The notes under the pieces: generated by a model
The model's input: the letters and a program-made list of their open reading frames with translations, nothing else
The model's database searches: none
What the model was told of the DNA's origin: nothing
DNA from: Klenkia marina
GTDB taxonomy: Bacteria; Actinomycetota; Actinomycetes; Mycobacteriales; Geodermatophilaceae
DNA length: 64,000 bases
Assembly: GCF_900101025.1 (NCBI RefSeq)
Contig: NZ_FMUH01000002.1
Location: 744,001 to 808,000 of the forward strand
Direction: 5' to 3'
Translations under genes and position numbers: made by a program
Part shown: one piece after another, positions 4,329 through 8,727 of the stretch
How positions within the stretch are numbered: position 1 is the stretch's first letter
How the letters are laid out: each line of letters opens with the position of its first letter

Positions 4329-4820
4329 TCAGCGGTAGTTGTCGAACTGCAGGGCGATCTCGAAGTCCTTGCTCTTGAGCAGCTGCTGGACCGCCTGCAG
4401 GTCGTCGCGCTTCTTGCCGCTGACCCGCAGCTGGTCACCCTGGATCTGCGCCTGCACGCCCTTGGGGCCCTCGTCGCGGATGGCCTTGGCGATCTGCTTG
4501 GCCTTGTCCGAGGCGATCCCCTGCTGGATGGTCGCCGAGATCTTGTAGGTCTTGCCCGACGCCTGCGGTTCGCCGGCGTCGACGGCCTTCATCGAGATGC
4601 CGCGCTTGACCAGCTTCTCCTTGAACACCTCGAGGGCGGCGGCGACCCGCTCCTCGGTGTCGGCGGTCAGGGTGACCCCCTCCTCGCCGGCCCACGCGAT
4701 GCTCGCGTTGGTGCCCCGGAAGTCGAAGCGCTGGGACAGCTCCTTGCCGGCCTGGTTCAGGGCGTTGTCGACCTCCTGGCGGTCGACCTTGCTCACGACG
4801 TCGAAGGACGCATCTGCCAT
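4329..4820 (-). CDS. YajQ family cyclic-di-GMP-binding/nucleotide-binding protein
   Basis: A 163-residue protein matching the whole YajQ (DUF520) family, beginning [20 protein letters not shown]. YajQ proteins have two ferredoxin-like folds and bind nucleotides; homologues in Xanthomonas and Pseudomonas bind cyclic di-GMP and act with transcription factors. The conserved [10 protein letters not shown] and [14 protein letters not shown] blocks are visible. The ATG at 4820 follows an AGGAGGAG, so the 26 open codons upstream are not used. A GGDEF-EAL protein encoded 1.4 kb away makes a cyclic di-GMP link possible but unproven. Confidence 0.93.
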
Positions 4821-4905
4821 GTCGGGACTCTCCTCCTCGTGGTCGCGGGCCACCTCGTGGGTGACCCGGACCGGTCTTGTACGCTCGTCGAGCACCACAG
4901 CACAC

Positions 4906-5492: not shown

Positions 5493-5943
5493 CGGCCGGA
5501 CTGTAGGTCCACGCGGCGCGGGCCGGACCCCGCCGTCACCCGGATGGGGACGGCGGTCGGCGGTGCCTGCGCCGGGGGTCCGCGGGCAGTTGCGCAGCGT
5601 CACGACACGGGCGCTCGACACCCGTGCACGTGCCGTCGTCCCGACCGGGCGTGTCGGGACCACGACCCCGCCCGCCGGGGAGGCGCGGGGGACCGGCCCG
5701 GGACCGGTGACGGGCCGTATTGCGGTGTCGCACGGTCGAATGTCATCCTTTCGATGACTTCGGGTCGCGAGTTGTCGACGCAACGTAGCGACGCCACCGT
5801 TCATCACCTGGTCGTGCTGTCAACGACTTGCCCGACCGGGTGACGGCTCGGAGTCTTCTCGCAGCGGTCCGTGCCGACCTAGCTCTGCCCCCGCGTGGGC
5901 GGCTGCCGCATTCGAGCAGTCCACCCATGCCTGAGGAGGCGTC
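5493..5943. other. intergenic region with AT-richer island
   Basis: This 451-base stretch lies between two divergently oriented small genes. No convincing coding frame was found. Positions about 5715-5835 are visibly richer in A and T than their surroundings and contain a small TCATC/GATGA inverted repeat (5749-5763 area). That suits promoters for the flanking divergent genes, but no well-spaced -35/-10 pair could be picked with confidence. Confidence 0.5.
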
Positions 5944-6051
5944 ATGTCCAGCACCACCGCCATGTCCAGCACCGCCCGCACCGGCAAGTGGGCCCGCACG
6001 GGCAAGTGGGCCCGCACGGGGAAGTGGGCCCGCACGGGCAAGTGGGCCTGA
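5944..6051 (+). CDS. 35-residue cationic repeat peptide, four ARTGKW units
   Basis: A small gene not recognised from any named family. The ATG is preceded by GAGGAGG (5933-5939). The product starts with two copies of an MSST segment (residues 1-4 and 7-10), then carries four exact tandem ARTGKW units (11-34) and a final Ala. It has eight Arg/Lys, four Trp and no acidic residue, so it is strongly cationic. The two base differences among the DNA repeats (ACC/ACG and GGC/GGG) are both silent in this frame but change residues in overlapping frames, which supports real translation. A terminator-like hairpin follows at 6075-6105, so it appears to be monocistronic. It is too short to carry a normal signal peptide. 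Possible roles (membrane-active peptide, nucleic-acid binder, precursor of a processed peptide, regulatory short frame) cannot be separated from sequence. No maturation enzyme is adjacent. Confidence 0.6.
   Translation: MSSTTAMSSTARTGKWARTGKWARTGKWARTGKWA
5974..6045 (+). repeat. four 18-bp tandem repeats inside the small peptide gene
   Basis: Units at 5974-5991, 5992-6009, 6010-6027 and 6028-6045 each encode ARTGKW. They differ at only two third-codon positions. A shorter imperfect duplication (ATGTCCAGCACC) precedes them at 5944 and 5962. Confidence 0.95.
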
Positions 6052-6074
6052 CCCACTGCTGACCCCCTGACCCG

Positions 6075-6105
6075 CGGGGCGGTCGCCGTCCTGGCGACTG
6101 CCCCG
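6075..6105 (+). terminator. terminator after the repeat-peptide gene
   Basis: A 13-bp stem with one G-U pair (CGGGGCGGTCGCC with GGCGACTGCCCCG) and the loop GTCCT, 23 bases after the peptide stop codon. It separates the peptide gene from the GGDEF-EAL gene. Confidence 0.65.
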
Positions 6106-6183
6106 TCGTGGTGAGAAGGGCCTGGAACGGCGGTCACTCGCTGTTAGCCTCGCGCCGACCCGCTTCCTAGAGTCAGGGCTTCG

Positions 6184-8727
6184 TTGGCCGAGGTATCGAC
6201 CCCCGCGCACGCGCGGCGGTCCTCCGTGCTCCGGTGGCCGTGGACACCGACCGCCCTCGCGGTCGCCATCGCCGCCGTCTCCGGCGTGCTCGCGCTGCGG
6301 CCCCCCGACGGCGCCCCGGTCTGGTGGATCGTCGGCGTGGTCTTCGTCGGCGGGGTCGTCGCCGAGTCGGTGCCGCTGCACCTGGAGTTCGGCCGGCAGA
6401 CCTGGGCCTTCTCCTTCATGGACCTCGTGCTCGTGGTCGGGCTCATCGAGGTCGGGGCCTTCTGGACCGTCGTGGCGCGCACCGCGGCCCTGCTGGTCGC
6501 CCTGGTGCACCAGCGCTACGCCCCGCCCAAGCTCGTGTTCAACCTGGCCACCGGGGTCACCGAGGTGGCCGTGGCCGCCCTCGTGCTCGGGCTGTTCCCC
6601 CCGGTGGACCTGCAGGAGCCGCTGTCCTGGCTGGCGCTGCTGGTCGCCCTCATCGGCGCCGGCCTGGCCGGGAACGTGCTGGTCGCCCTGGCCATCAGCA
6701 TGACCGCCGGTGTCCCCGGTGCCTCCTTCTGGAAGGCGTCGTTGGGCACGGGCGCGGCGCTGCCCTTCCTGGGCGTCGGCATCGGGATCGTCGTGCTGCT
6801 GCTGCTGCGCGAGACCACCTGGGCGCTGGTCGTCGTCCTCCCGCTCGTGGCCGCGGTGCTGCTGCTGTTCCGCCAGACCGCCCGGGTCAACCGGGAGCGC
6901 AGCAGCCTCCAGCAGGTCTACGACTTCGCGCGCCGGGTGGAGGAGGTCGCCTCCGACGACACCGGGCTGCGGCGCATCGCGACCGCCGTGCGCGAACTCC
7001 TGAACGCCGACCGCGTCGCGCTCTGGCTGCCGCCCTACCTCGACGCCGAGCCGCGGCTGGTCGTCGCCCGGGCCGACGGCTCCGAGGAGTGGTACGACGG
7101 CCCCAGCGACCCGGAGGACCCGGTGCGGCGCCGGGCGGTGGCCACCGACGACGCCGGCCCGGTGCTGCTCACCGCCGGCCGGGCCACCGCGGAGGAGTCG
7201 GTCGCGCTGCAGCGGCGGGGGGCCCAGGAGGTGCTGGGCGCTCCCGTGGTCACCGCCGCGGGGGAGTTCGGCTACCTCGAGGTCTGCGACCGGCGCAGCG
7301 ACGTCGTGTCCTTCCAGGCCGGCGACCGCGCGGCGCTGGACTCGATGCTCACCCACGTCAACGCCGCCATCCGCCAGCAGCAGCTGCTCACCCGCATCCG
7401 GTACGACGCCGACCACGACGGGCTCACCGGCCTGCCGAACCGGCAGCGCCTGGCGACGGAGATCGACGACCTGCTGGGCGGTGACCCCGACGTCCGGGTC
7501 GGCCTGGTGCTCGCCTCGCTGGACAACCACACCGACGTCACCGACACCCTCGGCCACGCCGCCAGCGACGAGCTGCTCATGGTCACGGCCGGTCTGCTGC
7601 GCGAGCAGGCGCCGCCCGGGGCCCTGGTCGCCCGCATGGACGGCGGCCAGTTCGCCGTCCTGCTGCCGGGGTTGAGCCTGCCGGCCACCGAGCGCGCGGC
7701 CCGCCGGCTCCGCGACGCCGCCGCCACCCGCGCGCGGGTGGCCGGGCTGGACCTCGACGTCCTGCTCACCCTCGGTGTCGCGGCTGCGCCCGTGCACGGT
7801 CAGGACTCCGGCACGCTCATGCAGCGCGCCGACGTGGCGCTGCTGGCCGGGCACGCCTCCGGCGGCGTCGCCAGCTACCACCCGGTGCTCGACCAGCAGA
7901 GCCTGCGCCGCCTGCAGCTGGGCACCGAGCTCGAGTCGGCGATGGCCGAGAAGCAGATCACCGTGGTGTTCCAGCCCATCGTCGACACCCGCACCTCCGA
8001 CATCGTGTCGGTGGAGACGTTGGTGCGGTGGGCGCACCCGCGGTACGGCAACGTGCCGCCCGACGACTTCATCGGGCTGGCCGAGCAGATCGGGCGGATC
8101 GGCGCGCTCACCGACTACGTGCTCGACCTCGCCCTCGAGCGGTGCCGCAAGTGGCTGGACCAGGACATCGGCCTCTCGGTGGCGGTCAACCTCTCGGCCC
8201 GCTGCCTGGCCGAGTCCGACCTGGTCGACCGGGTGCGCGGCGCGCTGCGCAAGCACGGTGTCCCGGGCTCGCTGCTCACGCTCGAGCTGACCGAGGGCAT
8301 CGTCGTCGACGACTCGGTGCGCAACTCCACCGTGCTGGCCGACCTGCACTCCCTGGGCCTGCGGCTGTCCATGGACGACTTCGGCACCGGCTACTCGTCG
8401 CTGTCCCAGCTGCGCCAGCTGCCCATCGACGAGCTGAAGATCGACAAGTCCTTCGTGCTGGGCATGTCGACCAGCCAGAGCGAGTCCTTCATCGCACGCT
8501 CGATCGTCGAGCTGGCGCACAACCTCGGGCTGCGGGTGGTCGCCGAGGGCGTCGAGGACGAGGTCACCCGCGACCTGCTGACCGAGATGGGCTGCGACAA
8601 GCTGCAGGGCTTCCTGGTCAGCCGACCGCTGCCCGACGACCGGCTGGAGGCCTGGTTGCTGGCGCGCACCGGGGTGCGCTCGGCGGTCGCCGGCTCGCCG
8701 CACAGGCGGTTGTTCGTGCGCTCGTGA
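6184..8727 (+). CDS. membrane GAF-GGDEF(degenerate)-EAL cyclic-di-GMP protein
   Basis: An 847-residue integral-membrane signalling protein. Residues about 18-225 hold seven to eight hydrophobic segments (a MASE-like sensor), about 235-400 a GAF-like domain, about 410-570 a GGDEF domain, and 585-835 an EAL domain. The GGDEF signature is replaced by DGGQF (486-490), so diguanylate cyclase activity is probably lost. The EAL domain keeps ETLVRW (Glu611), Asn669 in NLS, Glu701 in ELTEG, DDFGTGYSSL (731-740) and KIDKSF, as in active phosphodiesterases that hydrolyse cyclic di-GMP to pGpG. The degenerate domain may bind GTP as a regulator. The start used is TTG 6184; the conserved part begins later, so it is uncertain by a few codons. 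Confidence 0.9.
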   Translation: MAEVSTPAHARRSSVLRWPWTPTALAVAIAAVSGVLALRPPDGAPVWWIVGVVFVGGVVAESVPLHLEFGRQTWAFSFMDLVLVVGLIEVGAFWTVVARTAALLVALVHQRYAPPKLVFNLATGVTEVAVAALVLGLFPPVDLQEPLSWLALLVALIGAGLAGNVLVALAISMTAGVPGASFWKASLGTGAALPFLGVGIGIVVLLLLRETTWALVVVLPLVAAVLLLFRQTARVNRERSSLQQVYDFARRVEEVASDDTGLRRIATAVRELLNADRVALWLPPYLDAEPRLVVARADGSEEWYDGPSDPEDPVRRRAVATDDAGPVLLTAGRATAEESVALQRRGAQEVLGAPVVTAAGEFGYLEVCDRRSDVVSFQAGDRAALDSMLTHVNAAIRQQQLLTRIRYDADHDGLTGLPNRQRLATEIDDLLGGDPDVRVGLVLASLDNHTDVTDTLGHAASDELLMVTAGLLREQAPPGALVARMDGGQFAVLLPGLSLPATERAARRLRDAAATRARVAGLDLDVLLTLGVAAAPVHGQDSGTLMQRADVALLAGHASGGVASYHPVLDQQSLRRLQLGTELESAMAEKQITVVFQPIVDTRTSDIVSVETLVRWAHPRYGNVPPDDFIGLAEQIGRIGALTDYVLDLALERCRKWLDQDIGLSVAVNLSARCLAESDLVDRVRGALRKHGVPGSLLTLELTEGIVVDDSVRNSTVLADLHSLGLRLSMDDFGTGYSSLSQLRQLPIDELKIDKSFVLGMSTSQSESFIARSIVELAHNLGLRVVAEGVEDEVTRDLLTEMGCDKLQGFLVSRPLPDDRLEAWLLARTGVRSAVAGSPHRRLFVRS

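Follow-up and report, generated by a model that had tools for sequence, protein, structure and literature searches.

The stretch analysed here, referred to throughout as the window, comprises 64,000 nucleotides of the Klenkia marina genome (assembly GCF_900101025.1, contig NZ_FMUH01000002.1, positions 744,001 to 808,000 of the forward strand), and contains a very short gene for the repeat peptide MSSTTAMSSTARTGKWARTGKWARTGKWARTGKWA, followed on the same strand by the gene for a membrane protein that is likely to degrade cyclic di-GMP (c-di-GMP). The repeated unit of the peptide and the membrane sensor domain of its neighbour diverge together among relatives, a pairing that points to an undescribed peptide signal controlling c-di-GMP. 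The two genes comprise the following features:

5944..6051, + strand: peptide gene, proposed multi-copy peptide ligand; ATG to TGA, 35 amino acids plus stop
5974-5991, 5992-6009, 6010-6027 and 6028-6045 (span 5974..6045), + strand: the four ARTGKW units
6184..8727, + strand: partner protein, starting at TTG; a membrane sensor followed by GAF, degenerate GGDEF and EAL domains (Pfam); probable c-di-GMP phosphodiesterase
6184..6963, + strand: membrane sensor domain, proposed receptor from its variability and predicted fold
6967..7371, + strand: GAF domain (Pfam PF01590)
7408..7851, + strand: degenerate GGDEF domain (Pfam PF00990)
7927..8628, + strand: EAL domain (Pfam PF00563, E = 4.7e-67)

Only two positions distinguish the four 18-base copies (ACC/ACG and GGC/GGG), and the changes at both are silent in the peptide frame; the array is the top-scoring tandem repeat in the window (score 136). 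The peptide holds 4 Arg, 4 Lys and 4 Trp with no Asp or Glu and, judged by eye, lacks a signal-like N-terminus. A ribosome-binding site, a 36-codon frame, a hairpin, the four units and their two silent differences had all been described in an earlier sequence-only reading of this DNA, and all are present; the same reading recognised no family, in agreement with our searches, in which the best Pfam match (E = 0.045) fell far below the cut-off and NCBIfam gave none. The genome itself holds no second copy of the gene (next match E = 0.37). The open reading frame (ORF) is genuinely coding, and the array is more than a product of chance, because relatives keep both the frame and the layout and the differences between neighbouring units are mostly silent.

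Relatives were sought in 112 genomes of the same family, Geodermatophilaceae. A protein search matched 24 of these, several of the matches being spurious, and the relatives it found had the same layout with different units. Most loci are instead located by a conserved element upstream of the gene:

5882..5895, + strand: conserved 14-mer GCTCTGCCCCCGCG; candidate promoter, operator or leader

This 14-mer occurs exactly in 90 of the 112 genomes (102 sites), and 90 of its sites, in 89 genomes, precede a short peptide ORF with an R..[KR]W core; the ORF pattern applied at these sites demanded that core, and its invariance there is thus not evidence. Together with the preceding GCGGTCCGTGCCG, the 14-mer is more strictly conserved than the peptide, and it corresponds to no Rfam family. 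Additional peptide loci were found in seven genomes (L163-L169) and in six (L170-L175), and two further loci (L180 and L181) have GVSW repeats behind N-termini that look signal-like by eye, which brings the homologues to 104 of 112 genomes. The eight genomes in which we identified none are mostly incomplete: G036, G069, G070 and G075 also lack a sensor match, in G072 and G074 the contig ends some 200 bases ahead of where the sensor matches, and in G067 and G094 the matched sensor is preceded by a protein with a W-rich tail. The homologue search that the sequence-only reading had proposed as a check thus bears the gene out, since copy number varies among relatives and the repeat differences leave the frame unbroken. 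Scanning named genomes yielded 78 loci, mostly from Klenkia, Modestobacter, Blastococcus and Geodermatophilus according to record titles, with the peptide upstream in 70 by automatic rule; it was identified by eye in the other eight, on contigs matching loci already read, and two of these (L312 and L370) hold a single intact unit each. A peptide-profile search of the order matched 52 of 397 genomes, 50 of them in the family; the matches outside it, L161 and L162, were dropped, as their repeats are chance-like and the partner gene is absent.

The unit itself is highly variable, with 39 distinct first units across the 90 loci and with arrays of three copies in 40 loci, two in 24, four in 17, five in two and, by rule, one in seven. 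Across the family its core reads R-[G/T/S/N]-x-x-W-small residue, and the existence of units such as RGASWS, RGTMWG and RGTQWG means that the second basic residue is dispensable. Acidic residues, moreover, are absent from only 54 of 96 distinct peptides, and the emphasis that the sequence-only reading had placed on positive charge is therefore not sustained. This bears on an antimicrobial role, which the richness in Arg, Lys and Trp might suggest and which we consider extremely unlikely, given that charge and acidic content vary among relatives, that the association with a sensor domain described below is phylum-wide, and that a narrow test covering the nearest neighbours (the TadG-like, YajQ and GGDEF-EAL genes) revealed no maturation or immunity gene. 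Neither this role nor nucleic-acid binding, which the sequence-only reading also listed, drew support from the sequence comparisons. Within an array, on the other hand, the copies are held alike. Among 88 distinct family arrays, the units are identical as protein in 85 and as DNA in only eight, and differences between neighbouring units number 242 silent against 7 replacement, where 23% silent would be expected at random (binomial p = 4e-142). Recent copying of DNA is insufficient by itself to account for this, because the DNA copies would then be identical as well; these substitutions are most simply read as selection that holds the copies alike within a species while the unit changes between species.

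The position of the partner protein is nearly constant. Its orthologue follows the peptide on the same strand in 89 of the 90 loci, the exception being a contig end, with the match lying 211-500 bases downstream of the peptide start. In the 78 sequences that we aligned, the fourth residue of the GGDEF motif (E) is always Q or R, while the EAL motifs are kept (ETL in 78 of 78, DDFGTG in 77 of 78, with one gap), and for this reason the protein is likely a c-di-GMP phosphodiesterase. Mean pairwise identity rises from 49% in the sensor through 73% in the GAF and 86% in the GGDEF to 88% in the EAL domain, so that the membrane sensor is the fastest-evolving part of the protein. A hydropathy scan places about seven or eight membrane segments in the sensor. 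It matches no Pfam family above cut-off: MASE9 (PF20972) reaches 17.4-18.0 bits in three of eight distant relatives, under its curated cut-off of 24.3, and is not among the families listed for 65 members of set A4; sequence searches of the PDB gave nothing relevant. Proposed ligand and receptor domain alike thus appear to lie outside the families covered by the database comparisons made. Among the families listed in a structure comparison with VIA-align, the predicted fold of the sensor resembles the S-components of energy-coupling factor (ECF) transporters (RibU, FolT, ThiT and CbiM-type), at 9-17% identity. S-components bind small ligands from outside the cell; the sensor would differ from them in being fused to GAF-GGDEF-EAL rather than forming part of a transporter. 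The genome of the window has 22 EAL-domain matches in 4.2 Mb, and hence a rich c-di-GMP network.

Unit and sensor diverge together. Across the aligned sequences, the distance between units rises with that between sensors (rho 0.38, or 0.34 as a partial correlation on EAL, with none of 300 label shuffles as high), although this figure ignores phylogeny, and we therefore used 39 disjoint pairs of nearest relatives instead. In these pairs the difference in unit correlates with that in the sensor at rho 0.69 and with that in the catalytic domains at 0.09; corrected for the catalytic domains, the sensor correlation is 0.72 (p = 2e-7). The sensor differs by 1.5-18% in the seven pairs that share a unit and by 16-60% in the 32 whose units differ, and in 22 of those 32 the catalytic domains are less than 5% different. 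The unit tracks sensor divergence, not catalytic divergence. Flanking sequence was compared for 32 of the 39 pairs (five were left out and two dropped, the peptide missing from the automatic list), among which sensor divergence is 6% in same-unit and 40% in different-unit pairs, whereas the corresponding values are 14% and 22% for the intergenic noncoding spacer (p = 0.08) and 14% and 16% for DNA further upstream (p = 0.40). The unit is followed less closely by the GAF domain (5% and 14%, rho 0.62) and by the leader (3% and 8%, rho 0.54). Had linked DNA simply been exchanged as a block, which is possible in single cases, the spacer would be expected to have moved with it. The sequence-only reading was right to treat the ORF as genuine and to list a signalling peptide among its options; what it missed is the likely partner role of the neighbour, whose sensor diverges with the unit.

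The same pairing is found beyond the family. Matches to the sensor protein or to its profile (A2) occur in 19 of 70 selected genomes, 50 of 296 genomes of the class and 58 of 296 of the phylum, and repeats upstream of these related sensors take three further forms. The first consists of small precursors with a signal-like N-terminus (signal peptides in relatives being judged by eye only) and one repeated unit separated by variable spacers, such as SNGWQ four times, GTSWH three times and SHTWE four times. The second consists of longer proteins whose tails carry as many as 22 units; the one tested is a Peptidase_S8 (Pfam E = 4e-40) and the other W-tailed proteins are subtilase-like by eye. In the third form, seen in one genome (L189, G136), seven separate mini-genes each encode MRGATWG (ATG-CGN-GGN-GCN-ACN-TGG-GGN-TGA); they occupy the stretch from 828 to 380 bases before the sensor match, each preceded by a Shine-Dalgarno-like sequence, with silent differences between them and unrelated spacers.

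To count such cases, we required an ORF on the same strand that ends no more than 400 bases upstream of the sensor match and contains the same xxxW tetramer two or more times. From 69 class loci fetched first we left out L238 and L258 as too short and L193, L197, L207 and L210 for having fewer than 400 bases upstream. A W-repeat ORF is present at 38 of the remaining 63 (37 without L233, a likely wrong frame), at 19 of another 20 matches in the class (chosen blind to the upstream DNA, and made up of 16 whose open frames span 468-550 amino acids plus four others) and at 16 of 26 phylum loci. Shifted-window controls gave one match in 91 for the class (a W tail, one gene further up) and none in 25 for the phylum. 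EAL genes away from the listed sensor matches in 12 genomes were counted only with the open frame defining the window; one in 40 was positive, and that match (L267, RSRW twice) looks like chance; with the same open-frame window, sensor loci gave 25 of 57 (p = 1.5e-6) and their opposite strand 5 of 57. We adopted the sensor-match window because the open-frame window misses loci whose frame is open far upstream. The rule finds no repeat at 25 of the 63 class loci and 10 of the 26 phylum loci, where the sensors may have other or single-copy ligands. In an order-level set of 20 matches, single-W secreted candidates are the only ones at L177, L179 and L182, L185 has nothing upstream, and L176 and L178 have too little upstream contig; none of these six is counted as support. 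Of 53 positive loci, 34 have a unit that starts with G, so that G-x-x-W is common and not universal.

By Pfam, the partners at eight of the later 20 loci include one HisKA, two GAF-PAS and one GGDEF protein and four with no output domain, and the GGDEF partner belongs to the locus without repeats. Since kinase and GAF-PAS partners do have repeats, it is the sensor domain that the repeats accompany, rather than c-di-GMP enzymes in themselves. Three sensor paralogues present in two genomes of a single genus retain the units GLRW, GLTW and GRRW as parallel channels, with 79-90% identity within and 22-35% between channels over about 100 residues; a repeat-free paralogue in these genomes also pairs with its counterpart (66%). 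We also note that the proteins at L405-L419 run for about 450-505 amino acids from the sensor match onward behind a W-tailed protein, that those at L407, L409, L410 and L419 have no output domain by Pfam, and that many terminate in WTTTGVL or similar.

These partners also bear on the idea that the peptide is a cytoplasmic binder or sponge of c-di-GMP. The precedent is that of the Caulobacter Cle proteins, which PMC5677366 describes as CheY-like proteins with arginine-rich extensions that bind c-di-GMP through tandem [YF]xGP[DE][RK]R motifs; c-di-GMP-binding tandem motifs also appear in PMC8325347. The likeness lies in a tandem pattern of Arg and aromatic residues with a tie to c-di-GMP, but the Cle motif is absent, by eye, from the window peptide and the family peptides inspected, the unit varies freely around R and W, and repeat-associated sensors elsewhere drive kinase or GAF-PAS proteins. 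In view of the signal-like N-termini and kinase-coupled sensors of relatives, we set the sponge aside as scarcely credible.

The strongest rival to a signal makes the peptide a small partner that accompanies the sensor constitutively, that is, a permanent subunit needed for folding or basal activity and not a diffusible molecule. The leaderless form and the strict genomic neighbourhood are in keeping with such a subunit, and a fixed protein contact would also yield joint divergence; the signal-like N-termini of relatives, the subtilase-like tails with up to 22 units, and the many identical copies and seven mini-genes fit release of the unit better than a one-to-one subunit, which makes this reading unlikely. 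Signal-like multi-copy precursors with variable spacers count in favour of a signal. The subtilase-like tails in most of the distant relatives (S8 by Pfam in one) could alternatively mean that the W repeats are an anchoring or surface-binding module while the sensor responds to a different cue, for instance the protease attached to them or products of that protease. Geodermatophilaceae, however, keep the repeat alone, with no protease, and its sequence still tracks the sensor, so we regard an anchoring role as improbable.

Further elements surround the peptide gene:

5933..5939, + strand: Shine-Dalgarno sequence GAGGAGG, preceding the ATG
6063..6120 (paired stretch), + strand: strong hairpin 3' of the stop, terminator-like, with no clear T run
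6142..6150, + strand: TGTTAGCCT, extended -10-like; candidate separate promoter of the sensor gene

Of 97 family loci, 93 have a Shine-Dalgarno-like motif no more than 16 bases from the start. The segment 6052-6125 has a folding energy of -43.9 kcal/mol, and the best 50-base window after the stop has a median of -33.7 kcal/mol over the 97 loci (a value given without a shuffle control). In 73 of the 97, TG[TC]TAGCCT follows the stop at a distance of no more than 420 bases, and TGTTAGCCT is, from its sequence, a possible separate promoter of the sensor gene. A short ORF with a hairpin after its stop, in a fixed place upstream of one gene, might also be a regulatory leader whose translation controls that gene by attenuation or coupling. 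Such a leader would need neither joint divergence with the sensor protein nor the long W-tailed replacements seen in relatives, and the candidate promoter lies downstream of the hairpin; we find this explanation very improbable. For the 5' leader, RNAalifold gave -2.25, where shuffled columns gave -0.21 (standard deviation 0.50); the covariation term was practically zero, and we do not call a structured leader despite the lower energy, as the fold is tiny. A known RNA element at the locus was likewise rejected, since Rfam gave no match at the gathering score in the peptide region and only a chance-level one (E = 3.1) on the opposite strand. The gap that separates the peptide gene from the divergent TadG-like gene contains an inverted repeat, GTCATC-N5-GATGAC (5742-5758), possibly an operator. 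A DUF520/YajQ gene is also nearby (window 4329-4898, - strand), and BLAST finds it at 41 of 90 family loci, many of the fetched stretches being too short to hold it. YajQ proteins have been reported as c-di-GMP binders in other bacteria.

Taking these alternatives into account, we consider it probable that the gene encodes a multi-copy peptide signal whose unit is read by the neighbouring membrane sensor and sets c-di-GMP through the EAL domain. Each six-residue unit (ARTGKW here) would be the ligand, or its source after cleavage, and would also be exported in the leaderless form; binding to the sensor domain would set the activity of the attached phosphodiesterase, and with it the c-di-GMP level, in either direction, and the signal may act between cells or on its producer. 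The unit would then serve as a species code that diverges with its sensor in the manner of pheromone types.

The logic of a variable peptide with a matching variable sensor resembles known pheromone typing. As in agr and ComQXPA, a small variable peptide gene stands beside a variable membrane receptor gene, here, with the sensor as proposed receptor, in 89 of 90 cases, and ligand and sensor co-vary, here in the 39 pairs. Those systems differ in having a histidine kinase as receptor, where the window has an S-component-like domain on a c-di-GMP enzyme; here, in addition, the units are arranged head to tail and no AgrB/ComQ-type maturation gene was seen among the neighbours covered. The regulator RopB acts in the cytosol, and no regulator of RopB/Rgg type is found among the nearest neighbours, to which the comparison was confined. 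The leaderless communication peptide (LCP)-RopB systems of Firmicutes, as presented in PMC10518010, use short leaderless peptide signals with species-distinct codes, and the window peptide family is also short, leaderless (by eye) and species-distinct; the neighbour here is instead a membrane-domain GAF-GGDEF-EAL protein, and the peptides share an R/G..W core. Reading of a cell-cell signal by a GGDEF-EAL protein has a parallel in diffusible signal factor (DSF)-RpfR, where, according to PMC13220807, a PAS-GGDEF-EAL protein reads a fatty acid; that signal is not a peptide, and PAS is not a membrane sensor. In the PMC literature searched we recognised nothing as this system, although most subscription papers and preprints lie outside that coverage and a prior description is possible.

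More broadly, we lean towards an Actinomycetota-wide signalling class in which short W-centred peptide codes, carried by leaderless repeats, mini-genes, secreted precursors or subtilase tails, would be read by S-component-like membrane receptors with c-di-GMP enzymes, kinases and others as outputs, ligand and receptor co-diverging into species types and several channels running in parallel in one genome. As peptide and receptor are small, adjacent and variable, their specificity is directly testable. If the reading is true, Actinomycetota would possess a peptide language that plugs directly into c-di-GMP, a large number of orphan membrane sensors would gain ligands, and a transporter ligand-binding fold may, as the predicted structure suggests, have been recruited as a peptide receptor.
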